Shown one piece after another: positions 1 through 21,823 of a DNA stretch of 26,105 nt. Location: IMG/VR virus record IMGVR_UViG_3300037245_002345, positions 1 to 26,105 of that record, one strand, 5' to 3'. Source of the stretch: a virus. The first letter of the stretch is position 1. The number at the start of each line of letters is the position of its first letter. The position numbers and the translations under genes are program-made. The notes under the pieces are model-generated. The model made no database searches and was not told the DNA's origin. It saw nothing but the letters and a program-made list of their open reading frames with translations.

Positions 1-3000
1 CTGGATACCGTGGACCCGGGCATACTCCAGGAGGTCCATCGCTTCCTGGGTTTCCGCCGTGACGTCCCACCCTTCACGACCGTCGAGCTTCGGCTTCTCC
101 TGGATCGTGATGACGCCAGCGTCGACAAGGCGGTTGATGATCTGTGTCCCGGCTGGGGTTCTCAGAACATCCGCAAGGCTCGCGTTCTCTCCCGCTGCTT
201 CGATCTTTCCGGCAATGTACTCCGCTTCTTTCTCGGGGAGTTGCCGTGCGTCTGCCGTGGCTCGCTCAGCCGCGGTCAGTTCCGCAACGCCGGTCTTGTT
301 CGTTGCTCGAATGATCGTATCGGCAAGGCCGGGAGTTGCTTTAAGAACGGACGCTGGAATCTCGCGCACCAGGACGGGGTTCTCGACCCCTTCGAACTCT
401 TTCGGGTCGATGCCAAACTGTCGCGCTTTCTTCGCGAGAAGTTCCTTGTATGCCTGCGCTCCCTTGGGGTTCTGCGCATAGGCCCGCTGGATCTTCATCA
501 CTCGCGAGTTTCCGCCAAGCGTATTACCTTGCGGGTCAATGACCGGAGGACCATTCAGCGCGTCGGGATTGTCCGTGATGAGGAAGCGCGGGTTGAAGAT
601 GCCGGGGCTCGCGTCATGAACAACGCGCTCCTGATTGGCCGGATCGGAGTAGTCCCGTTCGTTCTTGATTTGGTAGCCCTCGAAGGGCTGGAAGGTCAGG
701 CCGCTGTGCGACGGGTAGACGTCACTCAGTTCTCGGACTGAGTAGCGGGCTTGGAAGGTGGTTGACTCTCCCGGGACGAGGACTTCCGTTTCATCGCCCT
801 GTGAAGATCTGCCGACCGGCGGACGCGGTTCAGGAACCGCTGGGACTTCTGTTTCAGTTCCTTGCTCTTCTCGTCTTGGCTCATCGGTAGCCTCTATCTT
901 TGATTCTACAGCAGGTTTCTCAATTTCCGGCTTCTTCTTCGCCTTGGACCGTCGCGCCGCCGGATGTGCGGCTTTCGGTTCGACCACCTCCTCTCCCGCC
1001 TTGGATGGCGTCTTGAATTCCCAAAATTGTACTCGATTATTGGCGCTGACTCTGGACCCGCCAGCCTTGATAAAGGCGCTGGGGGCGTATGACCCCGGCA
1101 GCATCTTGACAACCGCTCCACGCCCAAACTCTTTTGGTTCCCCGACGTATCCTCGCCCTTCGTGTAGGTAGACATTCCCGACGTGCTTTCCCGCTGCATC
1201 GTGTAGTTCGCCGCGATAGGCACCCTTTGGGAAGTTCCGTTCGGGAACCGCAACGAGGTCTTCGCTTGTCATTCGCCACGGCTCTTTAGCGGCCTTGGGT
1301 TCCGGTTCGACCACCTCCTCTCCCGCCTCGCCAACCGGTTCCACGTCCGGCAGTCCAGATTCTTGCGGAGATTCCCCCGTATGGGTGGGTTTGTCCGGTT
1401 TAGTCCGGTCAACTTCGGGGCCGCTCTCCGCGGGCGGGATGTCGGGTTTCGTTGCTGGCATGCGCGCCGGGGTCGTTGCGACCTCCGCCACCGCCGGCAA
1501 CTCATCGGACGGCTTGAGGCTGCCAAGCTCACTCGATGACCTAATTGTGTCTACGTTGAAGTGTTCGCCTCTGCTGCCCGAGTAGGTCTTTGTGCTAGGT
1601 GACCAAGTGAATTCCTCACCCGTGGCGGGGGAGGTATATTTCTCAACCATTCCATCGGGGATGCGGGCCTCCGCTGATTCTGGCGCATCTGCCCGTACTT
1701 CTGGCTCCTCTTTGCCCGCCGGGGTCGTCGCATCCGGCTCCGTTGATTCCACAGAACTTACGGGCGGGATATCGGGTTTCGTTGCTGGCATGCGCGCCGG
1801 GGTCGTTGCCACCTCCGCCACGTCCGGCAGTTCATCGGACGGCTGCGCTTCGATGGCTTCCTGCACCTCCGGTATCGAGAGTGCTTCGTCAGCTTCATCG
1901 GTGTCGACCTCGAACGGTTTCTTCGTCCGGCTGTAGACGGCATCGCCGTTCTTCTTCGGCTTTGCGGAAACAACGCCGTCCTCTACCAAGCGGTCAAGGA
2001 TCGGCTGGGCCTTGTCCCTCGGAATCCCGAACTGCTTCTCCAGCTTGGTTTTGCCGAAGACGGGTTGCTCGGCGGCCCACTTCTTAATGCTGTCGTAGCT
2101 CTCGGTCGCTTCGGCTTTAGGCGCTTCGGCTACCTTGGCTTCGGCCAAACCCTTGGGTACTTCGAGCCCCGCATCACGGAACTGCCGCGCCGCCGCTCCT
2201 CTGGCTGCTTTGATATTCGGTGCGAGAACGTATCCCGGTGCCTGCCCCGGTTTCTCCACCCATACAGCCAGACCGCCGCGTTCACCTTCCGGCGCCTGCC
2301 TGATCGTGATCTTGACGTCTCCCTGCTCGAACGTCACTCCGGGCTCTTCCGTCGGCTTCCCGCCTTTGCGTCGTTCCCTGATTAAGTCGATGTTCTCGCC
2401 GTGCTCCCGCGAGGACTCTCCGAGCTGTTCATATTCGGCCTTGGCCTTTGCGGCCTGGACGTCGGTTCCGCCCTTGGCCCTTCTGGCGCTGAGCCAGTTG
2501 TGGACGTCGGCGGCGCGGCCGGCGTTCAGTACTTCGCCGGTTTCAGCGTCGACGACCCGCGCGCCCTTCGGTACGCCCTTGTCTACGCCATATCCAAACT
2601 CGATGCGGGCTTTCCGCCCGTTGACCACCACGTCAACTGGTTCACCGCCGGTCGGCTTGCCGGTCAGCTTCCCCCACTCCTGCGCTGCCAGCCTGTTTCC
2701 CTCGGCTTGCAGTTCCGTTGCCCGCTGTCCGGCGCCCCGGACCGGCTCACCGTATGTTTCCGGAACTTCCATACCCTCGGGCTTAATTTCCTTCACGCCC
2801 GGGCGGCTCTTCCAGCGAGTTGTAGCTCTCGGCTTCAGGTTGCTGAGTTCCGCGTCTGGGTAGAGTGCAGCTTTCCCCGTGGCTCCGGCCTTCACACCGG
2901 CTGCACCGAGACCGGCGAAGAGCAGACTTGTCAGTCCCTCTACTCCGGCTTCGATCATGGCCGCCTCGTCACCGGCTTCGGCCCCGGCTGCTACACCACG

Positions 3001-3798
3001 CGCACCCTGAACCGCCCCAGCCACACCCATCCCGCCAAATACAGCCGGCACAGCAGTAGCCGCGGCGATGTCTAAAGCCTCTGCAATTTTCGGGTACTCC
3101 TTGAGAAGTGGAACCAGTTTCGGAGAGTTGACTGCAGCTTGCAGTACCTGGGCACTGCCAGCACCCGCCAGCATTATGGCGAGATTCTTAGCACTGAGCA
3201 TCCCGAGTGCTGTCCTGGTGACGGCGTTGACCGCAACCTCAGATCTTGTTTCACCCCGCGGGATAAGGTCACCTGGTCCAGAGAGTATCGGCTCCATCGT
3301 TGCGGCCATACCCGGGCTGGAGTCGGGCGCGCCAACAGAAAGAAGCGCGCCACCGGGGCCGACGACGGTCTGATCCGGCGGGATAGATTCGATCGGAGGG
3401 GGAACATCAGGGATACCGGGCGGTAGGCCGCCGCCCAGCCGCTCCATACCGGGCACATTTTCGTACTCGTACATCGCGGGCTGCGGTACGCCGACGAACG
3501 GCCCTTCCACCGGCTCCACCGGCGGAATCTCTTCCTCCGGCACATACCCAGCTTCGGCTGCCATCATCCCGCCGGCGCCGGGAGTCATGCCCTGCGGCTG
3601 GAGCTGGTATCCGGGCGTCCACCTGGCATCCCATAGGTCACGCTTCACCTCTCGAGGGACGTTCTCGAATTGGTCAAATCGAGCTGTGAAGTCATTCGGG
3701 TCCTGCGCCTTCGTGAAATGATCCCAGATGTTCCTGCGGACCGTTTCATCAAAAGGTTGAGAATCCAGATAACCCTGAAGCTGATCGGGGGTAGTCAT
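1..3798 (-). CDS. Giant polyvalent/ejection-type virion protein with winged-helix and DdrB/ParB-like domains (partial, C-terminus beyond window)
   Basis: Reading the minus strand from the ATG at 3798-3796, all 1266 codons to position 1 are open, so the gene continues past the window edge. Residues about 195-306 are Ala/Gly-rich and hydrophobic, as in phage ejection proteins that meet membranes. Residues 567-622 (SYDSIKKW ... QFGIPRDKAQPILDRL ... DGVVS) resemble the FtsK-gamma winged helix, a DNA-binding fold. Residues about 1030-1150 resemble the DdrB-like ParB domain of phage polyvalent proteins, including the stretch around IDPQGNTLGGNSRV (1087-1100), where GNSR sits where ParB nucleotide-binding motifs lie. 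Pro/Glu-rich linkers join the domains, and two linkers are duplicated. It starts 3 bp after the previous gene and is the last gene of the late operon in view. The inferred role is injection into the host with the genome, then action on DNA or host defences. Domain calls are by eye. Confidence 0.88.
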   Translation of the reverse strand, partial: MTTPDQLQGYLDSQPFDETVRRNIWDHFTKAQDPNDFTARFDQFENVPREVKRDLWDARWTPGYQLQPQGMTPGAGGMMAAEAGYVPEEEIPPVEPVEGPFVGVPQPAMYEYENVPGMERLGGGLPPGIPDVPPPIESIPPDQTVVGPGGALLSVGAPDSSPGMAATMEPILSGPGDLIPRGETRSEVAVNAVTRTALGMLSAKNLAIMLAGAGSAQVLQAAVNSPKLVPLLKEYPKIAEALDIAAATAVPAVFGGMGVAGAVQGARGVAAGAEAGDEAAMIEAGVEGLTSLLFAGLGAAGVKAGATGKAALYPDAELSNLKPRATTRWKSRPGVKEIKPEGMEVPETYGEPVRGAGQRATELQAEGNRLAAQEWGKLTGKPTGGEPVDVVVNGRKARIEFGYGVDKGVPKGARVVDAETGEVLNAGRAADVHNWLSARRAKGGTDVQAAKAKAEYEQLGESSREHGENIDLIRERRKGGKPTEEPGVTFEQGDVKITIRQAPEGERGGLAVWVEKPGQAPGYVLAPNIKAARGAAARQFRDAGLEVPKGLAEAKVAEAPKAEATESYDSIKKWAAEQPVFGKTKLEKQFGIPRDKAQPILDRLVEDGVVSAKPKKNGDAVYSRTKKPFEVDTDEADEALSIPEVQEAIEAQPSDELPDVAEVATTPARMPATKPDIPPVSSVESTEPDATTPAGKEEPEVRADAPESAEARIPDGMVEKYTSPATGEEFTWSPSTKTYSGSRGEHFNVDTIRSSSELGSLKPSDELPAVAEVATTPARMPATKPDIPPAESGPEVDRTKPDKPTHTGESPQESGLPDVEPVGEAGEEVVEPEPKAAKEPWRMTSEDLVAVPERNFPKGAYRGELHDAAGKHVGNVYLHEGRGYVGEPKEFGRGAVVKMLPGSYAPSAFIKAGGSRVSANNRVQFWEFKTPSKAGEEVVEPKAAHPAARRSKAKKKPEIEKPAVESKIEATDEPRREEQGTETEVPAVPEPRPPVGRSSQGDETEVLVPGESTTFQARYSVRELSDVYPSHSGLTFQPFEGYQIKNERDYSDPANQERVVHDASPGIFNPRFLITDNPDALNGPPVIDPQGNTLGGNSRVMKIQRAYAQNPKGAQAYKELLAKKARQFGIDPKEFEGVENPVLVREIPASVLKATPGLADTIIRATNKTGVAELTAAERATADARQLPEKEAEYIAGKIEAAGENASLADVLRTPAGTQIINRLVDAGVITIQEKPKLDGREGWDVTAETQEAMDLLEYARVHGIQ
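976..1327. repeat. 25-nt exact direct repeat pair (linker B)
   Basis: Positions 976-1000 and 1303-1327 are identical over 25 nt and in the same reading frame. They encode part of the linker GEEVVEP(EP)KAA at residues about 823-837 and 933-944 of the giant protein. A compact segment of about 95 residues (838-932) lies between them. Confidence 0.9.
1431..1844. repeat. 84-bp imperfect direct repeat pair (linker A)
   Basis: Positions 1431-1514 and 1761-1844 match at 78 of 84 positions by my count, and lie exactly 330 bp (110 codons) apart. Both encode a linker of the form PSDELPxVAEVATTPARMPA followed by TKPDIPP, at residues about 653-679 and 763-789 of the giant protein. They bracket a segment of about 83 residues. 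Confidence 0.92.
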
Positions 3799-8878: not shown

Positions 8879-10758
8879 CTTCGCCAGTAGACGCGGATAC
8901 GTGAGAGATCAAACCATGCGTCAGCCGAGTTTGTCTGGATCCGGATGCTCGCGTTGTCGCCCGTGAGATCGAACCTGCGGTGCGGTTCCTCGTCGGGACT
9001 CTCCTCCAGTTCGATAGGGTCTGCATCGTCGGAGACCTTGCGCCCCTTCTCGTAGACCGTGATGCGGGCCGTTCCTGCTCCGGCAATTGCGAAGTCGCCG
9101 CCGCCGAATCGATTGATCTTCGAGCCGCCGTCGGACCGGGTTATCAGCAGGCCGGTCTCGTAGACGCTGTCGATTGCGTCTCCGTCGTCATCCTTCGTGT
9201 CTGAATCTTCCTGCCAGATGTCCGTACTTCCGTCGTCCGGCCCGACCAGAAAAACAGATTTCCTGGTGGTCGGATCGTTGACTATCGCGATTGAAGAGAA
9301 GTCTCCGACCGCAAAGTCGTCCAGCGAGAAGTCCACTGCGAATGGAGAGAACCCATTGCGGTAGTACCAGGTCAAGATGTGCGTCGGCTCGGTTTCGTCA
9401 TCCAGGGGCGCGGCCACTCGTATCCGTTGTTCGGCGACGTCATCGACCACTTGGATCGCCGCCGGGACCGCCCAGTTGATGCGCTTCCACTCTGTCTCGT
9501 TCATGAACGAGATCGGCATATCCTCGAACGCACCGATGAACCGCCAGAGTCCGGCCGGGTTTGCTACCCACGCGAAATCTCCTGACGTGCGGACGTTCAC
9601 GCCAAACGGCGCCGTCGTTCCTTGGCTCTCAGAGACGGTAAACGGTGCCGGCCAGGTGTCCGGAGTGTCCGTGTTGTCTGAGAAGGCGTAGGTCCAGTTT
9701 GGACCGAGGACGTAGAAGTTTCCACGCAACGAGAAACCGGTCACGACCTGCTTTCGCCCGGGCAGGTAGAGGACGTTCTGGTCTTCGGTGATGACCTCGA
9801 AGTCGTCCATGTCGGAGACATAGACCTTCTCATTGACGAAGTACGCCAACCGTTTACCAAGTTCGACTATCACCGAGGGTTCGATCGGCCCGTCTTCGCT
9901 GGTGTCCTGGGTCAGGTAGTCGAAGTGCTTGTCCGCCGAAACCGCGACACGTCCCAAGTCTGCGTCTGAGACGTCGATCGTTATAGAGACCGGCCAAGCC
10001 TCTCCGCCACCCGGAACAGCCAGCGCCGCCCCCGGGACGAAGAAGTATTCATGCGGATTGTCGATCGTTGTCATGATCGGATGGATGTAGGAGGCCCAGT
10101 CCGGAATGTCAGAGGTGAAACTGAAGTTGAGCTCCTTTCCCCCGCTGCCCACCGTGAAAGCGACTGGTGCGAATGTTGAACCAGCAACAGGGCTCCCGGT
10201 CCCGAGGAACCCACTTCTGCTCTCTACCAGGTAGGCGAAGTAATGCTGGCCTGCGTCAACATCCCCCGATCCGGATTCAGCAATAACGGGGACGGCCGTC
10301 ATCGGCGGAGAGAACGCCTTGTCGCTCGGAGCCCCGCCGATCAGGGCATGAATTACCCGCGCTTCGCCGGCGCTTTCAGCATCGCTGTCCATGATGGCCG
10401 CGTACAGGCGATTTCCAGCTTCGGCCACGGATGCGGCCCGCCCGGCGAGAGTGAAGAGTTCAACGCTGGCGGCGTAGATTAGATCCCTCATTACGAGGGT
10501 TTCTTCGCTGTGGAAATAAATCAGGCGATTGAGTCTGCCGATGCCAAACGAGGAAGTAACCCAGTTGTGCATCGACGTGATCTTGCCGGGGACATCGAGG
10601 AAAGATGAGTGCCCGTTTCGGGTGATTGGACCTTTGGGATCGTAGCTGACATTGCGGGCTATTTGAGCGCGAGTTGGGCGCGCACGCTTTCCGTCCATGC
10701 GGGACCACGCCCCGCGGAACCCTTCAATATCTTTGTCAAACCACCCGATCAGGGACAT
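8860..10758 (-). CDS. Probable beta-propeller tail nozzle / DNA stabilisation protein
   Basis: 632 aa, mostly short beta strands with aromatic-rich repeats such as GNFYVLGPNWTYAFSD and GDFAWVANPAGLWRFIG. This pattern fits a beta-propeller. Podoviruses place such proteins at the tail hub or nozzle (for example T7 gp12 and P22 gp10), where they close the portal channel. The gene lies between the head-completion genes and the tail fibre, as expected for that role. The C-terminal about 100 residues look like a separate beta domain ending in VYWRRWLTNR. Its ATG overlaps the stop of the 136-aa gene (TAATG), indicating translational coupling. The fold assignment is by eye and would need a profile or structure comparison. 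Confidence 0.68.
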   Translation of the reverse strand: MSLIGWFDKDIEGFRGAWSRMDGKRARPTRAQIARNVSYDPKGPITRNGHSSFLDVPGKITSMHNWVTSSFGIGRLNRLIYFHSEETLVMRDLIYAASVELFTLAGRAASVAEAGNRLYAAIMDSDAESAGEARVIHALIGGAPSDKAFSPPMTAVPVIAESGSGDVDAGQHYFAYLVESRSGFLGTGSPVAGSTFAPVAFTVGSGGKELNFSFTSDIPDWASYIHPIMTTIDNPHEYFFVPGAALAVPGGGEAWPVSITIDVSDADLGRVAVSADKHFDYLTQDTSEDGPIEPSVIVELGKRLAYFVNEKVYVSDMDDFEVITEDQNVLYLPGRKQVVTGFSLRGNFYVLGPNWTYAFSDNTDTPDTWPAPFTVSESQGTTAPFGVNVRTSGDFAWVANPAGLWRFIGAFEDMPISFMNETEWKRINWAVPAAIQVVDDVAEQRIRVAAPLDDETEPTHILTWYYRNGFSPFAVDFSLDDFAVGDFSSIAIVNDPTTRKSVFLVGPDDGSTDIWQEDSDTKDDDGDAIDSVYETGLLITRSDGGSKINRFGGGDFAIAGAGTARITVYEKGRKVSDDADPIELEESPDEEPHRRFDLTGDNASIRIQTNSADAWFDLSRIRVYWRRWLTNR

Positions 10759-11168
10759 TAGCCGGAGGTGTTGAGGAAGTAGATCACTCCAGCAATGGAA
10801 CCGCCGCCCGTCATGTCGGATCCGGTCGAGCGAAGCTGGATACCGTCACCGGCCCCAAGGTTCGCATCGAGGCCGGCGCCCTCAGTCTTCGTGCCACCGT
10901 CCGGAGAAATGCGGCCGGAAAGGTTGCCCTGAGTGACGGTGACGATGTCGACCGGGGTGTCGTTGTCGCTGCTGATTCGAATGTCAGTGAGGGTGTTGAT
11001 CGAACCGGTGACGTCGAGCCTGTACCCGATCGGCTTCAGGGTCTGCCGGGGCTTGCGGCCCGCTGTGATTGTTTTGCCTGCGATGATCTCGGCCTGCGTT
11101 GCCGTAAACGGCACAGCTTGGACGAGTTCGCTGACGTGGAAGGCCGTGCGGCCAAGTAGTTTGTTCAT
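10758..11168 (-). CDS. Small beta-rich virion protein related to the triplicated protein upstream
   Basis: 136 aa, beta-rich and glycine-rich. The C-terminal pattern GAGDGIQLRSTG ... GSIAGVIYFLN matches the repeated C-terminal pattern of the neighbouring 434-aa protein (AAGDRLSVDLTG ... LAGVVVMVEF), so it may be a single-domain form of the same fold. An AGGAG Shine-Dalgarno sequence lies about 8 nt before the ATG. The stop overlaps the next start as TAATG. Likely a capsid decoration or head/tail joining protein. A 22-nt hairpin sits just upstream in the 61-bp gap. The domain relationship is by visual alignment. Confidence 0.75.
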   Translation of the reverse strand: MNKLLGRTAFHVSELVQAVPFTATQAEIIAGKTITAGRKPRQTLKPIGYRLDVTGSINTLTDIRISSDNDTPVDIVTVTQGNLSGRISPDGGTKTEGAGLDANLGAGDGIQLRSTGSDMTGGGSIAGVIYFLNTSG

Positions 11169-14603: not shown

Positions 14604-15860
14604 TTAGTATTCGGGCTGGGTGCAGCCGTAGATCACGCCGGCCTGTCCTGGGTTGTGGCAGACGAAGTTCTCATAGAGAACCAGACCTAGCCAGGTGGTC
14701 GTTGCGGGCGAACCGTCGCCCCCGAACAACTGGAAGAACCGGTCGCCATTGTCGTCCTCGAAGAACTGAATGTCGCCGTCCGGCAGGGTGGCGCGGATCC
14801 AGTCCTTCGGGATCATGAAGTCCATGCGGTCGGTTTTCTGGTGGATGTCCAGGCGGCACTTCATCCCGGCGTACCGGAACGACATATCGACGCCGTAATC
14901 CAGATCCTTCGCCAGCGAGCCCTTCGCGAGATCGTAGTTGGCAATTTCCTGGACCTGGGCGCGGATGTTCGCCTGTTGCTCGGGGGCCACGATTCCGACC
15001 AGATCACTGGGAATCTCGCCGCGCCGCTTCAACATCTTGTGCTTGAGCTGGGTTCCCTTCATGAACGTCGGAATACCGCCGGCGTTCACGGAGTTGGCAA
15101 CGATCTCCAGTTCGTTCGCACGGTTGACGCCGAGAGTCGTTCCCGACTTGGCGTAGTTGCTGAAGACGTACATGCCGTTCACGCTGGTCGGAGTTGAACC
15201 GGAAACGCCCTCGAAGGCGAATTTGTCGGTTGAGCTAGCGCCCGAGACGGTTGCGTCCAAGTAGATCTTGCGCACGTCGTAGTCAATCTGAACGATGCGG
15301 CGAGCGGTGCCAGAGTCCAATTGGGCCGTTCCGCCGGGGTTGTACGGAATCACGTACTGGCCGCGTCGAAGGTGCATGACGCCTACGCTTTCGTCCATCG
15401 TGTAGATGGACACTCCGCCGCTTGTGGTGTGCGCCGTCGCGGTCGCGATGAAAGCCGTTCCGGCGCCGTGGAAAATCTTGTCGCAATACTGCGCCATTTC
15501 CGGGATGGCTTTCTTCAGCACTCGCTTGAGCGCGTTGACCTGCGACACTTTCTTGCTCGCGGTCGCCTTCTTCGCCAGTTCGGTCAACTCGAAGTTGAGC
15601 CGAAGCGGGTAGAAGGACGCGATCATAGTGCCGCCCTTGGCCGCAGAACCGCGACCGAGTGCGCCGCCGTCGGGATCAAAAGTACCGAACCGGCCGCCTT
15701 CTTGAGTCATGAAGTTGACGCGGAAGTCGCGCTCTCCGATGACCTCGAGGTCGGACCGGCTCTTGATGAGGTTTCGCGTGAAATCGAACTTCCCGAACCA
15801 ATCGGGCAGTTCCTTCGCGATCACCTCGGATTGCTGGAAAAGATAGTCGGTATCAGCCAT
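14604..15860 (-). CDS. Major capsid protein
   Basis: 418 aa. The call rests on position and build: it follows the scaffold by 16 bp, comes two genes after the portal, and is followed by a strong terminator, as expected for the most abundant virion protein. The N-terminal part has an arm rich in charged residues, then a loop-like Gly-rich stretch (GGRFGTFDPDGGALGRGSAAKGG), then a long helix (ELAKKATASKKVSQVNALKRVL) compatible with the HK97-fold spine helix. The C-terminal half is beta-rich, with a strand pair around RMDFMIPKDWIRATLPDGD. A GAGGAC Shine-Dalgarno sequence sits 4 nt before the ATG. There is no sign of a fused protease or delta domain. HK97 fold is expected but not shown. Confidence 0.83.
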   Translation of the reverse strand: MADTDYLFQQSEVIAKELPDWFGKFDFTRNLIKSRSDLEVIGERDFRVNFMTQEGGRFGTFDPDGGALGRGSAAKGGTMIASFYPLRLNFELTELAKKATASKKVSQVNALKRVLKKAIPEMAQYCDKIFHGAGTAFIATATAHTTSGGVSIYTMDESVGVMHLRRGQYVIPYNPGGTAQLDSGTARRIVQIDYDVRKIYLDATVSGASSTDKFAFEGVSGSTPTSVNGMYVFSNYAKSGTTLGVNRANELEIVANSVNAGGIPTFMKGTQLKHKMLKRRGEIPSDLVGIVAPEQQANIRAQVQEIANYDLAKGSLAKDLDYGVDMSFRYAGMKCRLDIHQKTDRMDFMIPKDWIRATLPDGDIQFFEDDNGDRFFQLFGGDGSPATTTWLGLVLYENFVCHNPGQAGVIYGCTQPEY

Positions 15861-15876: not shown

Positions 15877-17334
15877 TCAGTCTGTAGAGAGGACCTTGTC
15901 TACGTAGTTCTCCCAATCCTCAGCCCTGATCTTTCCGCCCTTCGGCTTGGATGGCAGCTTCGGTTTTGGGGGAGTTCCAGACGGGGTCCGTCTCTTGCTT
16001 TGCGCCTTCTTGACGCGACGTTTCTGCGCGTTCGTAGTCTCTTCAAGGTGTTTCGCGTCCTCGCTCACAATTTTTGAGAGGACGGAGCCGATCACCTTGA
16101 CCGCTTTCGACTCGTAACGCTCTGCCAGTTCCTTCCGTAGCTCGTCGCGGACCCGTTCGGATGACGCTCTCGTTGCTCGGGTGACAATGGGCTCATTAGC
16201 CTGACGGAAAGCTCCGTCCTGCTTAATAGCCGACTTGATTTCTTTGCCCAATCGGGCTTTGATGTTGTTCAGTCGCTCCGGGAACTTTTCGTAGCTCTTG
16301 GAGTACTTCTTCAGGGCTTTGTCAATCGCCCCGCCGATGCGCTGGCCTATGTCCGCCTTGGTATCCTCAGAAAGTTTCCGAAGGGCCCCTGCGGAGACAG
16401 CAGGCTCAGCCGAATCCTTGGTCGCTGCCGGCTTTTCCTCGGCCGGCGGTTCAAAGTCGTCGAACTTCTCGTGTTTCTTGAACACAACGTTGTCAATGTG
16501 CCCCGCGGCATTGAAGAGATTCTTGTCCCCCTCGCGTTTGCCTTTCGCGTACAGGGTTTTGAGCACCTCCTGCAGGACATCATTGCTGATAGCCGTTGCC
16601 GTCTCTGGGTCTTCTTGAGAAACCAGATCCAGGAACGTCCTGGCCGCCGTGGGCAAGGGGTTAGTTGCAAGCGATCCGCTCTCCTGGTCCGTCTTCGACA
16701 GCTTGATGAAGTGGTTGAATACCTGGGCCTGCTTGGCAGGGTCGCCACTCTGGAAGTCCAACAGCATGAAATCCATGTCCTGTTGTGACTTGAGTGCTCT
16801 CTCGAATTGCTCGGGGGTGACATCATCACCGTCGACGATCTTTTGCAGGGCTTCGTACTTCTGCTTCTGTGCGTATATGGCCTTGCCCCGGGCCTCGGTG
16901 TATACCCACTCCTTCTTGCCGTTCTTGTCGGTTCGGACTTCTTCAACCTCGTCCGGGACATCCTTGTCTCTCTTGCTTTTGTCGGCGCCGTCAGCGTCAG
17001 CGTCTTCGTCAGACCCTTCCTCTTCTTCGCCGTCGGAATCCTCGGTGTCGTCGGATTCTTCGGCGTCGGACTCTTCCTCGTCGGATTCTTCGGCGTCCGG
17101 CTCTGCGATGTCCTCTTCGTCAGACTTTTCGGCGTCAGCTTCGTCGCCTTCCTCAGCGTCGTCGTCAGAATCGGCTTCTTCAGCCTCTTCGCTGGCGTTG
17201 TCGTCAGACTCTTCGGCGTCGGTTTCTTCAGCATCGTCGGCGTCGTTTTCAGGAGCCAACAGCGAGTTGAACGTGTCGTCAAAAGAGTCTTCGAACCCTT
17301 TATCGAAATTGCTTCCATCTACGTTTTCAGGCAT
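15877..17334 (-). CDS. Capsid scaffolding protein with acidic N-terminus and WEN[YF]VD tail tag
   Basis: 485 aa. Residues about 28-125 are almost only Asp, Glu, Ser and Ala (AEESDDTEDSDGEEEE-type). Residues 150-430 are largely helical. The C-terminal region is basic (QKRRVKKAQSKRR) and ends in DWENYVDKVLSTD. Between portal and capsid genes this composition fits a scaffold: acidic N-terminus, helical rod, and basic C-terminus that binds capsid protein. In P22 the C-terminal helix-turn-helix of the scaffold docks onto coat protein. The last residues share W-E-N-[YF]-V-D with the Pro/Gln-rich protein at 20453. No protease motif was found. The Shine-Dalgarno sequence before the ATG is weak and distant. 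Confidence 0.8.
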   Translation of the reverse strand: MPENVDGSNFDKGFEDSFDDTFNSLLAPENDADDAEETDAEESDDNASEEAEEADSDDDAEEGDEADAEKSDEEDIAEPDAEESDEEESDAEESDDTEDSDGEEEEGSDEDADADGADKSKRDKDVPDEVEEVRTDKNGKKEWVYTEARGKAIYAQKQKYEALQKIVDGDDVTPEQFERALKSQQDMDFMLLDFQSGDPAKQAQVFNHFIKLSKTDQESGSLATNPLPTAARTFLDLVSQEDPETATAISNDVLQEVLKTLYAKGKREGDKNLFNAAGHIDNVVFKKHEKFDDFEPPAEEKPAATKDSAEPAVSAGALRKLSEDTKADIGQRIGGAIDKALKKYSKSYEKFPERLNNIKARLGKEIKSAIKQDGAFRQANEPIVTRATRASSERVRDELRKELAERYESKAVKVIGSVLSKIVSEDAKHLEETTNAQKRRVKKAQSKRRTPSGTPPKPKLPSKPKGGKIRAEDWENYVDKVLSTD

Positions 17335-17394
17335 ACGTGTCCATTGCGTCCGTCCTTCGACGTCCGCTCCTTCTGCTATTCAGCTAGTTGGGGA

Positions 17395-19665
17395 TCAGCC
17401 CAATGGGGCTGGGCTGTCTGTCACCGGCGGAATGGTAGCCGGTGCTTCTCCGCCACCTTGCGGTGGTGCTTCTTCGCCGCCTTCCTCTGGAGGCATGGCG
17501 GCTGCCATCATCTGCTCCTGCAGCATCATTTCGAGTCGCTCAAGGTGCAGATAGACGTTTCTGAATCCGGGCATATCCTTCTGGGCTTGTCCGGCCGGCG
17601 AGTTACACCACGTTCGGAATAGCTCGGCGTACATCTCAACAGGCTTGTCCAAGATCGGATCCGGCTGTATCGTCGGCTCCTCCATGGGCTGCCCTGTCAT
17701 CGGGTCAAAGCCAACGACCATCGGCTCTTCGGCCAGCAAGTCCTTGATGCGCTTCATGACCTTCTGTTGTTCATAGGAACCAGGCACGTAAAGGCCATCG
17801 ACACCAAAGAAATCCTGCATGTCGGCGGCGTTCATCGGATGCTGGAACCCTAGCCCAACAGCTAAATCCGGGTTTTCAGTAGAGATGGAGACGATTCGGT
17901 CTACCTTCTCTGCGTAGGAGATCGGAGCTGATTCGGCGGCCTCAACATGCCACCCTTTGTCCTTGAGCATGTGGATGGTGAACGTGTAGGAGTTCTCCAG
18001 CCCGTTGTTCAGCTTCGGCGGAACCGTGACGTTGCCCGAACCGTTCTTCGCTAATTCGCGGATTCCGTTATCGCTTACCTCTGTGATGAAGTCGTTTATG
18101 TTCTGGAACGGCGGCTGCAACTGCATGAGAGCCTGATTCTTCCGCTGGGACTCGGCCCGCCAGGTGTTCGCGGCTTCGCCACCACCGAAGATCGCCGGCT
18201 GGATGCCGTCGCCCTCCCGGCTCATGTCCCGCATGATCTGGTATAAAGGCATCATCTGATCGGAGAACCGCGACATGGGAAGTTGCCCGATCTGTTTTGA
18301 AATATCGGTGGGGCCGATCTTGACCGGGATCATCTCCGCTACTTGAACGTCGTCCTCTTCTTGAATGCGCGCCCGGTCAAATAACTCGCTAGCAACCAGC
18401 GTCTTGGGAATCGCCCTGACGATGGTCTCTTTGCCGAGATTCATGAAGTCGTTGATGTCGTTCTGTATCGGGATTATCGGGTCGCACAATGCCGGCGATG
18501 TCAGGTGTTCACCGGTTCCCGTCTTACAGATCGACCAGAAATCGTCGAGTTTTTCGTGCTCCGCTTCAACGAGCTGCTTCCCTACGAATGTCGTCCGTAG
18601 GCCATCTGGAAACTGCCCCAGCAGGAGCTTCCTGGTTCTCGGGCCGAACGCATGATAAATCACCGGCCGAACCCAGCGTCTCTCGTGGATGTACCTGTCC
18701 TGCTCTTCGAGCTCCCGAGTTCCGCGATCAGAGGAGACCTCCTGGACAGCACGATCAGCCTCCCGCGCCGCCACGCTCTCCTCATCCGCGAAGTTCTGGA
18801 GGATGCCGGCTACCTTGTCGCCGTACATCGCCCGAATCTGGTACTCCGGAAGCATCTCCGAGTGGGTGAGGTAGTCAGTGTCTTTCCGCTCTTTCGCCTG
18901 CGCTGAGACGTTGACATGGAAAAGGTTGTAGATGTCCAGTTCCACGCCGCCGTTCTCGTACTTCTTTATCCCGTTGAACCGCGGGACTTCTTCAATCTCC
19001 GCGGACTCATAGGAGACTTCATTGACCATCTCTCCGCACTGCGGACAGAACGGCTCCATGGTCTTCGTTCCGCATGCACCGCAGCGGTAGCCCGCCGGCG
19101 AAACCTCTTGGTGCTCTACCGAGACGTCCGGGATCTCAATGTACCCGTGCCGCTGGGCATCGGTGACGTAGTGGGTGTGACCGAAGGCTGGGCCCACGGA
19201 CCAGAGAGTAAACGCTAAATGGTCGACCACTTTTGCAATCTTCCACTTCAGATGAAGGTGTCTCAGCGCCGCGTCCCCATCTCGCGCGAGTTCGGTCATA
19301 TCCTCGTCGTCCGGATTGTCGGCAACGCACTTCTGGTTCGGTTTCCTCTGGCCCACGACAGCAACGAACTTCAGGCCGTCACTCTGGATGATGTTGTACA
19401 CCGAGCAGTACTTGACGTTCTTTCGCTTGCTCCTGTCATCGAGAACAGAAATCCAATCAATTGTTCGGTCGCTCGTGTCCAGCTTCGGCTTCAGATATTG
19501 CTTCCCCTGCCAGTAGAGGTAGTTCCGTTTCGCCCGGGAAATCTTGGCAACGCGATCAAGTTCCTGCGGGTCGTCGATGTCAGTTTGGAATGTCTCGTGC
19601 AGTTCACGCTCGATCTTCTTCTTAATCTCGCGAAACGATAGTTTGGAGTCGGTGACTGCAAGCAT
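17395..19665 (-). CDS. Portal protein with zinc ribbon
   Basis: 756 aa, of the large podoviral portal type. The N-terminal helix and the motif RAKRNYLYWQGKQYL are typical of portal clip/wing regions. Residues 380-520 contain the stretch ICKTGTGEHLTSPALCDPII to MRDMSREGDGIQPAIFGG, consistent with stem and crown. Cys195, Cys198, Cys207 and Cys210 (CGAC-x8-CPQC) form an inserted zinc ribbon. The C-terminus is disordered (EEGGEEAPPQGGGEAPATIPP). Portals form a dodecameric ring at one capsid vertex through which DNA is packaged and ejected. The start overlaps the stop of the 120-aa gene (TGATG). The assignment rests on length, order (after terminase, before scaffold and capsid) and general pattern. 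Confidence 0.85.
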   Translation of the reverse strand: MLAVTDSKLSFREIKKKIERELHETFQTDIDDPQELDRVAKISRAKRNYLYWQGKQYLKPKLDTSDRTIDWISVLDDRSKRKNVKYCSVYNIIQSDGLKFVAVVGQRKPNQKCVADNPDDEDMTELARDGDAALRHLHLKWKIAKVVDHLAFTLWSVGPAFGHTHYVTDAQRHGYIEIPDVSVEHQEVSPAGYRCGACGTKTMEPFCPQCGEMVNEVSYESAEIEEVPRFNGIKKYENGGVELDIYNLFHVNVSAQAKERKDTDYLTHSEMLPEYQIRAMYGDKVAGILQNFADEESVAAREADRAVQEVSSDRGTRELEEQDRYIHERRWVRPVIYHAFGPRTRKLLLGQFPDGLRTTFVGKQLVEAEHEKLDDFWSICKTGTGEHLTSPALCDPIIPIQNDINDFMNLGKETIVRAIPKTLVASELFDRARIQEEDDVQVAEMIPVKIGPTDISKQIGQLPMSRFSDQMMPLYQIMRDMSREGDGIQPAIFGGGEAANTWRAESQRKNQALMQLQPPFQNINDFITEVSDNGIRELAKNGSGNVTVPPKLNNGLENSYTFTIHMLKDKGWHVEAAESAPISYAEKVDRIVSISTENPDLAVGLGFQHPMNAADMQDFFGVDGLYVPGSYEQQKVMKRIKDLLAEEPMVVGFDPMTGQPMEEPTIQPDPILDKPVEMYAELFRTWCNSPAGQAQKDMPGFRNVYLHLERLEMMLQEQMMAAAMPPEEGGEEAPPQGGGEAPATIPPVTDSPAPLG

Positions 19666-20027
19666 CAGTCCTTCCCTCCATACATCTGCCGAATCTCCCG
19701 GCGGAACGCATCGTTGCCATCGTCGACCAAACTGCGGATAGGGGTGTGAGTGCTGATCGGCCTCATATCCGCTTCCGGCCGGTCCGGCGGCGCCGGCGCG
19801 TCTTGGAACGGCACGAACCCGTACTTCGTCTTCATCTCGACGTTGACGAGTGTCTGGTAGGCTCTCCGTTCGCTCCCGGTCGCCTTGTCCCGCTCCATGC
19901 GAAGTTGCTCCACCTCCGCCCGGAGAGCATGGACCTCGCCTTGAAGTCCGCGGATATCGCCTCCGCCGGCCACCAGCTTCGCCTCCATGTCGCAGTAGGA
20001 CTCGAACAGCCGCAGGAACCGTTTCAC
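19665..20027 (-). CDS. Small coiled-coil protein upstream of the portal
   Basis: 120 aa. Residues about 24-55 form a clear heptad coiled coil (LQGEVHALRAEVEQLRMERD). The rest is Pro-rich (PFQDAPAPPDRPEADMRP) and ends in a short helix (DAFRREIRQMYGG). It overlaps the 85-aa gene by 4 bp (ATGA) and the portal gene by 1 bp, so its translation is coupled to the portal gene. A role in portal assembly or terminase docking is possible but not shown. No family recognised. Confidence 0.78.
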   Translation of the reverse strand: MKRFLRLFESYCDMEAKLVAGGGDIRGLQGEVHALRAEVEQLRMERDKATGSERRAYQTLVNVEMKTKYGFVPFQDAPAPPDRPEADMRPISTHTPIRSLVDDGNDAFRREIRQMYGGKD

Positions 20028-20281
20028 TGCAACACCTCCGGATGCTGGGTCAGGTAGTGAGCCACGGTTCTCAAATACTTGTCCTTCTGTGCGTCTGACG
20101 GTCCCCCGTCAGGGTGCAGTTTTCGCCGGTGCGTCTGGTGGTGGAGTGTGAACATTTCTGGCAACTTGAAGCCGTCGACAAAGACTTCAGCCGAGACCGG
20201 TGAGCCCGAGCGAAGTTCCAATAGAATCCCACCGATCTCAACGCTATAACTCTGAGAACTCTTCTTCTTGGCTGTCGTCAT
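20024..20281 (-). CDS. Small protein with HPD motif, possible J-domain-like fold
   Basis: 85 aa. Residues 12-40 are beta-like (YSVEIGGILLELRSG). Residues 41-85 read as helix, HPD (56-58), then helix (DAQKDKYLRTVAHYL). A helix ending in H-P-D followed by a helix with a hydrophobic-Ala-Tyr pattern is the signature of the C-terminal half of J-domains, which recruit and stimulate Hsp70 (DnaK). The fourth and first J-domain helices are absent, so the resemblance is partial. It overlaps the 65-aa gene by 38 bp and the 120-aa gene by 4 bp. Confidence 0.7.
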   Translation of the reverse strand: MTTAKKKSSQSYSVEIGGILLELRSGSPVSAEVFVDGFKLPEMFTLHHQTHRRKLHPDGGPSDAQKDKYLRTVAHYLTQHPEVLQ

Positions 20282-20441
20282 ACTCGGCGGCGTCTTCTTT
20301 CCCTAGATCGCGCACATCCTCATTGAGGACCAAGCACTTTCCGTTGTTGAAGAAAGGACAGCCCTCGTGGGCCTCCGGTTGTGGCGCCGCGGGTTCCGGC
20401 GCCGGCGCTTCGTCGACCGGGGTGATGTCTGGTAGTCCCAT
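20244..20441 (-). CDS. Small acidic protein with paired cysteines
   Basis: 65 aa. The N-terminal third is Pro/Ala/Glu-rich, then GCPFFNNGKC (Cys28, Cys36), then an acidic tail (KEDAAEYDDSQEEEFSEL). The two cysteines with His25 could bind a metal, but a full site is not visible. An AAGGAG Shine-Dalgarno sequence lies close before the ATG, supporting this start. It overlaps the next gene by 38 bp in another frame, unusual within this otherwise tidy operon. Function unknown. Confidence 0.65.
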   Translation of the reverse strand: MGLPDITPVDEAPAPEPAAPQPEAHEGCPFFNNGKCLVLNEDVRDLGKEDAAEYDDSQEEEFSEL

Positions 20442-20452
20442 AGGGGGTCTCC

Positions 20453-21823
20453 TTAGTGCCTGTACGCCTGGTCAACGAAGTTTTCCCATCCGTCAATGGC
20501 CGCTGGCTCCTCAACGGCCTGTTGCATTCGATTGTCTGGAGGTGGTACTGGCGGCGGGCCGAAGTATCTGTCGGAGTTGGCCCGCGCCGTTGCTGGATCG
20601 GTGAGATAGGCGCGTACATCGTTGACGGGTTGCGCCGGCGGCGGTTCCACCATCAGGCCGGCGGTAGAAGGGGGGCCGAACGCTCGATCGTAATTGGCCT
20701 GCATCGTTGCTGGGTCGGTGGGGACGTCAGGCATCTGCGGAGGCGGCGGTTGCTGGGGCTGCGTTGCCTGATATGCATCCCACTGCTGACGCTCCGCCTC
20801 CCATTCCGGAGGTGGCCGCTGGGGCCGACGCATCCGGCGCTGCGCCTGCGCCCGCTGGGGCCGACGCATCCGGCGCTGCGCCTGCGCCCGCTGGGGCCGA
20901 CGCATCCGGCGCTGCGCCTGCTGCCTGATTTGCGCCCGCGGTTGCTGCGGAGCTGGCTGCAGTTGCTCCGCCATGAGGCCGGCGGTCGGATCGAATGGCT
21001 GCGGGGTCATTGCCGGCGGCTGAGGTTGCGCTGGCGGTATTCGCTGCGACTGCTGTGCGGCCCCGAACCTGCGCCGCGCCGCCGCATAATTCTGCTGGTC
21101 CAGTTGCGCTGGCGGATGCTCCATCATCAAGCCGGCAGTATTCTGAGGAGGAACCCCACCACCCTGCCTCGTGGTGGCCGGCCTACCTGACCTGCTGCGG
21201 TTCAGGGAAGGGCCAGACCTGCTACTGGGATTCGGCGTCTGCACGGCTGGCTGCGCCTGCCTCGTAGTGGCCGGCCTACCTGACCTGCTAGGTGGGGCGG
21301 CCGCCTGCGGTTGCTCCATCATCAAGCCGGCGGTCGAAGGCTGGCCCGCCTGTTCTGCTAGTTGGGCCTGCGCCTGCCCATAAGACATCGGCGCCTGTGG
21401 AGGTGGTGGTTGCGGCTGCTGCGGAGCCGGCTGTTGCTCCATCATCAGGCCGGCGGTCATGGGGGCGGGCTGCGGCAGTAAACCCCGCGCTGCCAGACCG
21501 TATCTCCAGAACGGGTGAGTGCTACTGGGGTTAGGCGTCTGCACGGCCGGCTGCGTCTGCCTCGTAGTGGCCGGCCTGCCTGACCTGCTAGGTGGGGCGG
21601 CCGCCGGCTGGGGTGTCGGGTAAGTTTCACCCAGAGCGCCTGTTCGGTTACCGCCGCCACGCCCCACGGCATTCGTACTGCGGCTGGGCGCCACCGGCTC
21701 CTGCCTCTGCGGCTGCGGCATGGTTACGGTCGGCGTCTGTGGCTGCGCCTGCTTCTTCGCCCGCCTCTGCGCTTGTGCCTGCTGCGCCGGGGACGGCGGG
21801 GATGCTGCAGATGTCTCAAACAT
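20453..21823 (-). CDS. Low-complexity Pro/Gln/Arg-rich repeat protein with scaffold-like C-terminal tag
   Basis: 456 aa, almost all Pro, Gln, Ala, Arg, Ser and Thr, so intrinsically disordered. It contains five TAGLMxE motifs (x = M, A or V), three copies of SRSGRPATTRQ, and an Arg-rich block of three QRRMRRPQRAQA-type units. It ends in GWENFVDQAYRH, the same WEN[YF]VD ending as the scaffold. It lies 4 bp after the large terminase and 11 bp before the next gene; an AGAGG Shine-Dalgarno sequence precedes the ATG. The basic repeats could bind DNA and the tag could target it to the assembling head, making an internal, DNA-binding head protein the simplest guess. No family recognised. Confidence 0.82.
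   Translation of the reverse strand: MFETSAASPPSPAQQAQAQRRAKKQAQPQTPTVTMPQPQRQEPVAPSRSTNAVGRGGGNRTGALGETYPTPQPAAAPPSRSGRPATTRQTQPAVQTPNPSSTHPFWRYGLAARGLLPQPAPMTAGLMMEQQPAPQQPQPPPPQAPMSYGQAQAQLAEQAGQPSTAGLMMEQPQAAAPPSRSGRPATTRQAQPAVQTPNPSSRSGPSLNRSRSGRPATTRQGGGVPPQNTAGLMMEHPPAQLDQQNYAAARRRFGAAQQSQRIPPAQPQPPAMTPQPFDPTAGLMAEQLQPAPQQPRAQIRQQAQRRMRRPQRAQAQRRMRRPQRAQAQRRMRRPQRPPPEWEAERQQWDAYQATQPQQPPPPQMPDVPTDPATMQANYDRAFGPPSTAGLMVEPPPAQPVNDVRAYLTDPATARANSDRYFGPPPVPPPDNRMQQAVEEPAAIDGWENFVDQAYRH
20645..21457 (-). repeat. Five TAGLMxE-coding motif copies
   Basis: Near-identical 21-nt units lie at 20645-20665, 20966-20986, 21119-21139, 21314-21334 and 21437-21457 (plus-strand form c-t-c-c-a-t-c-a-t-c-a-[ag]-g-c-c-g-g-c-g-g-t with small changes). 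Spacing is irregular, and the sequence between copies is different each time except where the larger 300-bp-spaced repeat applies. The conserved peptide within disordered sequence suggests a short linear binding motif. Confidence 0.9.
20819..20926 (-). repeat. 36-bp tandem repeat, about 2.8 copies
   Basis: Units start at 20819, 20855 and 20891. The first two are identical over 36 bp and the third matches for 30 bp. Each encodes 12 residues rich in arginine (RRMRRPQRAQAQ-type). The perfect identity suggests recent slippage or unequal recombination. Confidence 0.95.
21221..21604 (-). repeat. 84-bp imperfect direct repeat, copies 300 bp apart
   Basis: Positions 21221-21304 and 21521-21604 match at 79 of 84 positions by my count and are exactly 300 bp (100 codons) apart. 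Both encode a stretch including PPSRSGRPATTRQ and QPAVQTPNPSS. A third, shorter copy of the SRSGRPATTRQ part lies at 21164-21196. These duplications keep the reading frame. Confidence 0.92.

Follow-up and report, generated by a model that had tools for sequence, protein, structure and literature searches.

A C-terminal tag common to the scaffold and a Pro/Gln-rich head-operon protein of a phage, probably a capsid-docking helix

The window analysed here is the whole of a 26,105-base stretch of a virus record and is itself a fragment. Its head genes are encoded on the minus strand, where terL is followed by a gene for a protein rich in proline and glutamine (PQ), three small genes, portal, scaffold and the major capsid protein gene (MCP; Table 1). 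An earlier reading of the letters of this DNA (the first-pass annotation) gave scaffold and PQ their correct coordinates, but both, like the whole head module, are read from the minus strand. The identity of the large terminase subunit (TerL) is clear. That of the portal protein is taken from its family, the portals of six of whose eight members match phrog_156. Thirteen of 17 members of the MCP family match phrog_14242 ('major head protein'), the matches being weak, and when a model of the window MCP was submitted to Foldseek the top matches were nearly all HK97-fold capsids (best E 3e-5); on this comparison the window protein belongs to the HK97-fold capsid proteins, through a structural model of low confidence, and it is the presumed docking partner of the tag discussed below. 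Among the window head proteins searched, neither Pfam nor PHROG revealed a recognisable protease gene or domain.

Table 1. Head genes of the window and features of the two tagged proteins
Feature	Coordinates	Strand	Evidence
Terminase large subunit, 663 aa	21828..23819	-	phrog_979 (4.8e-30); Pfam Terminase_6N
PQ protein, 456 aa, Pro/Gln/Ala/Arg-rich	20453..21823	-	ORF, composition, repeats
PQ: five copies of TAGLM[MAV]E, residues 123, 164, 229, 280, 387	20642..21457	-	
PQ: three tandem copies of a basic 12-aa unit (QRRMRRPQRAQA)	20816..20914	-	repeats, charge
PQ: tag AIDGWENFVDQAYRH, residues 442-456	20456..20500	-	pair score; relatives-only scaffold-tail profile
Portal protein, 756 aa	17395..19665	-	family homologues match phrog_156
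Scaffold, 485 aa	15877..17334	-	homologues at the same place in relatives; AF2 model
Scaffold: tag helix AEDWENYVDKVLS, residues 471-483	15886..15924	-	AF2; ungapped alignment with the C-terminal motif of nearest relatives
Major capsid protein, HK97 fold (low-confidence model)	14604..15860	-	phrog_14242, Foldseek

Two observations concern the remainder of the window. The portal carries, at about residues 195-210, a Cys4 zinc-ribbon-like insert (CGAC...CPQC) whose four cysteines are invariant in the related portals of L130 and in those aligned from L118-L127, and which is missing from the L009 group (contigs described below). A very long minus-strand ORF at 1-3798, cut by the window end, has a ddrB-like ParB domain (PF18763, 1.9e-17), matches PHROGs of unknown function as well, and contains internal repeats of SDELPxVAEVATTPARMPATKPDIPP.

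The scaffold gene lies downstream of portal and directly upstream of MCP, a position that is kept in relatives and is that of the internal scaffolding proteins of tailed phages. The protein family has no PHROG or Pfam match, and the name given to it at first reading is upheld by the conserved terL-portal-scaffold-MCP order, the adjoining HK97-fold MCP and an AF2 model, built from an 18-row alignment, that is mostly helical (mean pLDDT 66). The chain comprises an acidic N-terminal third, a predicted helical middle, a basic Pro/Lys linker and a predicted C-terminal helix; in the model residues 449-470 have no secondary structure and are followed by an isolated helix, which is the tag. The C-terminus is AEDWENYVDKVLSTD, the tail reading ...KGGKIRAEDWENYVDKVLSTD up to the stop.

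PQ begins 4 bases past the terL stop, within the head operon. The description of one protein as acidic and helical and the other as Pro/Gln/Arg-rich proved accurate: the scaffold has a pI of 4.5 and a net charge of -51, PQ a pI of 11.5 and a net charge of +22, with 83 Pro, 69 Gln, 67 Ala and 47 Arg among its 456 residues. No Pfam or PHROG family was matched by PQ, and its composition suggests a disordered chain. It is rich in repeats: TAGLM[MAV]E, which occurs in no other window ORF, SRSGRPATTRQ, present three times, and the basic tandem unit of Table 1, a candidate nucleic-acid or polyanion-binding stretch to judge from its charge only. The high arginine content of PQ may point to DNA binding. 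The C-terminus is AIDGWENFVDQAYRH, and the tail up to the stop reads ...AVEEPAAIDGWENFVDQAYRH.

The ends of these two proteins, DWENYVDKVL in the scaffold and GWENFVDQAY in PQ, are the only places in the window where a six-frame search finds WENxVD. Their ungapped C-terminal score is 37, a value attained in 5 of 20,000 trials in which each tail's own residues were permuted. In a second control, comprising 14,131 same-contig pairs of ORFs from the window and from the viral loci collected by that stage, WENYVD/WENFVD was the top C-terminal 6-mer (score 35); the runner-up, at 34, looks like a pair of paralogues, and all the remainder score 30 or less. At the level of the window this gives p < ~0.02, a figure that falls if the scaffold is named beforehand as one partner. 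The tag common to both C-termini, as first noticed, thus stands, as does the statement that the proteins are unlike outside it: their Smith-Waterman score beyond the tag is 49, against 39 +/- 5.5 for shuffled sequences, 9 of 200 of which reach 49. Such similarity is little more than composition gives, and the sharing is confined to the tag. The DNA encoding the tag was also said to be similar, which is true in that 15 of 18 bases agree, but this carries no weight as evidence, because random codons for the same residues, drawn according to the phage's codon usage, would give 14.7 of 18. A DNA-level copy as the source of the tag finds no support in it; of the four codons for shared residues at which synonymous change is possible, two differ, which fits selection on the protein better than a recent DNA copy.

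Relatives of this phage were reached through successive alignments. No close relative came from single-sequence and exact-word searches with MCP, portal and TerL, none of the annotated phage records searched contained a protein related to the window MCP or portal, and a profile search of genome contigs with an MCP alignment gave no match. A TerL alignment that included remote phages led to L009 and L010 in IMG/VR, an MCP alignment built with these two to ten MCP-bearing loci, and a TerL alignment extended with the MCP-bearing loci to L130, a sister contig, and to a closer group, L118-L129. These came within reach only once the first distant relatives had been added to the alignments; a search with a portal alignment arrived at the same contigs. 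Identity to the window in L118-L130 is about 41-42% for TerL, 42-44% for MCP, 34-39% for portal and 23-28% for scaffold. The terL-portal-scaffold-MCP order is the same in distant relatives, and scaffold homologues lie between portal and MCP in L118-L130, L009, L010, L091-L098, L152 and L155. These contigs make up one phage family, in which MCP matches to PHROGs are weak.

Although the relatives' scaffolds differ by up to about 80% overall, they end in a linker and a short C-terminal motif: KFDSxSWAxEFxxAFN in L118-L129, TENYEASLDKLFANLG in L130, and FDPxxAxxQAxxLL or near to that in the L009 group. The relatives' tails ENYEASLDKLF, SWAQEFESAF and SKSWAREIDAAF align with the tag, at an overall scaffold identity of just 17-28%, and MAFFT places DWENYVDKVL at the motif position, ungapped with respect to the nearest group, whose pattern, [WY]xxx[FLIV][DE]x[AVL][FLY], is that of an amphipathic helix. 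The final residue varies within the family. A position-specific matrix (PSSM) trained on the relatives' scaffold tails alone, the window scaffold being excluded, was run on 3,175 ORF C-termini. Among ORFs not used in training, the window scaffold came first (12.5 bits); L152, likewise not used and later confirmed as a scaffold, ranked 26. PQ, at 8.0 bits, ranked 34 of 3,175 with about ten non-training ORFs above it, which places it in the top 0.4% of unseen ORFs (p about 0.0035 for this single hypothesis), though well under the 12-31 bits of that group's scaffolds. When the window scaffold was added to the training set, PQ became the best non-training ORF. The PQ tail therefore matches the family scaffold-tail motif even with the window scaffold left out. 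A 120-aa protein encoded upstream of portal has a tail, FRREIRQMY, that looks similar by eye; its rank with the PSSM was 747 of 3,175.

No second protein with the tail of its own scaffold was found in 11 relatives' contigs, read fully or largely, several of them fragmentary (G001-G004, G006, G008, G010-G012, G014 and G015); the best other tail matches there score 28-31 and look like chance. A protein downstream of MCP in L010, with the string GMYDRRKAAEQ, at first resembled a match; judged by eye, it belongs to an HNH-like insert containing pairs of cysteines. The scaffold/PQ tail pair is thus seen in one genome only. In PQ's place the sister phage L130 has a 392-aa Gly/Gln-rich low-complexity protein that lacks the tag, ending EEPGSFKSARLGS; it resembles PQ no more than the compositions would produce (z 1.3) and is a positional counterpart rather than a proven homologue. 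The other relatives have no PQ at all, and what occupies its position varies between them. The first-pass annotation had named as evidence against its reading a relative in which one of the two proteins is untagged; L130 supplies this in part, the protein being untagged and its homology to PQ unproven. The tag on PQ is lineage-specific, and its absence from L130 does not make it meaningless in the window phage.

The L130 protein has features of its own. It (9570-10748) and the next small protein (10751-11122) begin with a common MSPAMFGxxRRxGxGxP, and MSPxM is also the start of the protein that follows terL in the L118-L127 group and in L223, the window proteins being without it. This may be a further instance of a short terminal motif shared within the operon. 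A Trp motif is present three times in the 392-aa protein (RARWMQQVGGGG, RPEWMGQIVGGG, RPAWHQQVGGNN) and may be a short binding motif.

The best explanation of the scaffold/PQ pair, and one towards which we lean, is that PQ carries the scaffold's docking helix and by it would reach the same coat site and enter the procapsid. The WEN[YF]VD tag would be the window phage's version of a C-terminal docking helix belonging to the scaffold family, with hydrophobic or aromatic residues at positions 0, 4, 7 and 8, held at the end of a flexible linker; it is probably a capsid-docking helix of the scaffold that was copied onto PQ or converged upon by it. The scaffold helix would most likely bind the HK97-fold capsid protein on its inward-facing side. 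PQ, whose gene lies between terL and portal, would bear this helix at its own C-terminus, beyond a disordered chain, and would therefore most likely dock on the same site. There it would compete for a minority of the scaffold's coat sites and become enclosed, co-assembling with the scaffold into the procapsid as a minor internal (core) protein. With its basic repeats PQ could then pair with incoming DNA or with the scaffold's N-terminus, which is strongly acidic. That the tag targets PQ to the procapsid is likely, as far as comparison of sequences can indicate; we infer capsid binding, the recruitment and co-assembly of PQ, its DNA binding and the role of its basic repeats. More tentatively, the scaffold docking helix may be a portable sorting tag, through which an unrelated, disordered, basic protein is co-assembled by way of the same capsid pocket, and such sharing of tails may be a general but overlooked, lineage-specific route of loading.

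Three other explanations have to be weighed. Two unrelated C-terminal amphipathic helices might have converged on a similar hexamer, the PQ tail having no role at the capsid. That the pair is present in one genome only, that relatives have no second copy and that the tag DNA is no more alike than the amino acids require are all compatible with such a coincidence, as is the occurrence of the tag-plus-stop DNA pattern in viral contigs, where at least three in-frame cases at the C-termini of unrelated proteins are found among the 80 loci listed, all in unrelated contigs. It is nevertheless unlikely, given that the pair is the best of 14,131, that the match extends to the polar E, N and D in addition to the hydrophobic positions, that PQ fits a scaffold profile made from relatives only, and that its partner is the scaffold of the same operon. 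Alternatively, the helix could bind a partner other than coat, common to the scaffold and PQ: the portal, another scaffold molecule, or a host chaperone or scaffold-removing protease. In other phages, as in P22, scaffolds also recruit portal and ejection proteins (PMC8402733); the C-termini of herpesvirus scaffolds, however, bind coat (PMC12474303), an ordered contact of the phage 80-alpha scaffold C-terminus with coat is cited in PMC7552001, and the tails, unlike a degron, have no conserved last residue, so that we regard a non-coat partner as improbable. Least probable is a functionless duplication in which the 3' end of a scaffold gene was once copied onto PQ and persists neutrally: PQ is repeat-rich and probably recombinogenic, and the content of its position differs between relatives, but there is no similarity past the tag, and the two differing codons with a hexamer kept except for one residue suggest constraint.

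To our knowledge, how a phage selects minor internal proteins for its head has been worked out in few systems (T4, P22, HK97). Should the scaffold tail also serve as a sorting tag, internal cargo could be predicted without recourse to homology, by searching genomes for proteins that end in the same 10-15 residues as their scaffold, and scaffolded capsids would have in this tail a short C-terminal loading peptide ready for use. The remote relatives assembled here define a conserved C-terminal motif in a scaffold family that has no PHROG or Pfam entry.

The first-pass annotation knew of no described targeting tag of this form; this holds for the sequence but not for the principle, which is familiar from T4, herpesviruses and encapsulins. 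The capsid targeting sequence (CTS) of T4 is N-terminal and is cleaved by a protease, whereas the window tag lies at the extreme C-terminus. Like the tag, it is a short shared peptide for head entry; it directs proteins into the scaffolding core, while the tag is the scaffold's own tail. By this one peptide diverse proteins enter the T4 head, the internal proteins of T-even phages being otherwise highly diverse (PMC3012670). The herpesvirus proteins UL26 (protease-scaffold) and UL26.5 (scaffold) have a common C-terminal tail that binds MCP and brings a second protein into the procapsid (PMC12474303); they are the products of overlapping genes with 329 identical residues, whereas PQ, not an in-frame extension of the scaffold gene, is encoded separately, 3 kb away, and shares about 10 residues. 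The C-terminal part of the P22 scaffold is a small helical unit (PMC3185693), as the C-terminal part of the window scaffold is predicted to be helical, and cargo fused to it (residues 141-303 or 238-303) is packaged (PMC9962691). The P22 E-proteins are recruited through the scaffold, gp7 and gp20 at least by their own N-terminal parts (PMC8402733); they use no copy of the scaffold tail. In encapsulins a C-terminal peptide of ~10 residues docks cargo on the inner side of the HK97-fold shell (PMC7355545); encapsulins, unlike the window phage, have no scaffold, and the likeness drawn to the tag is one of principle. In the open-access literature searched we did not find a case in which the scaffold's final ten or so residues, and no more of it, are encoded at the end of a separate gene. 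On the reading preferred here the tag is a lineage-specific variant of known scaffold-mediated targeting, its principle known from the T4 CTS, herpesvirus UL26/UL26.5, engineered P22 fusions and encapsulin peptides.
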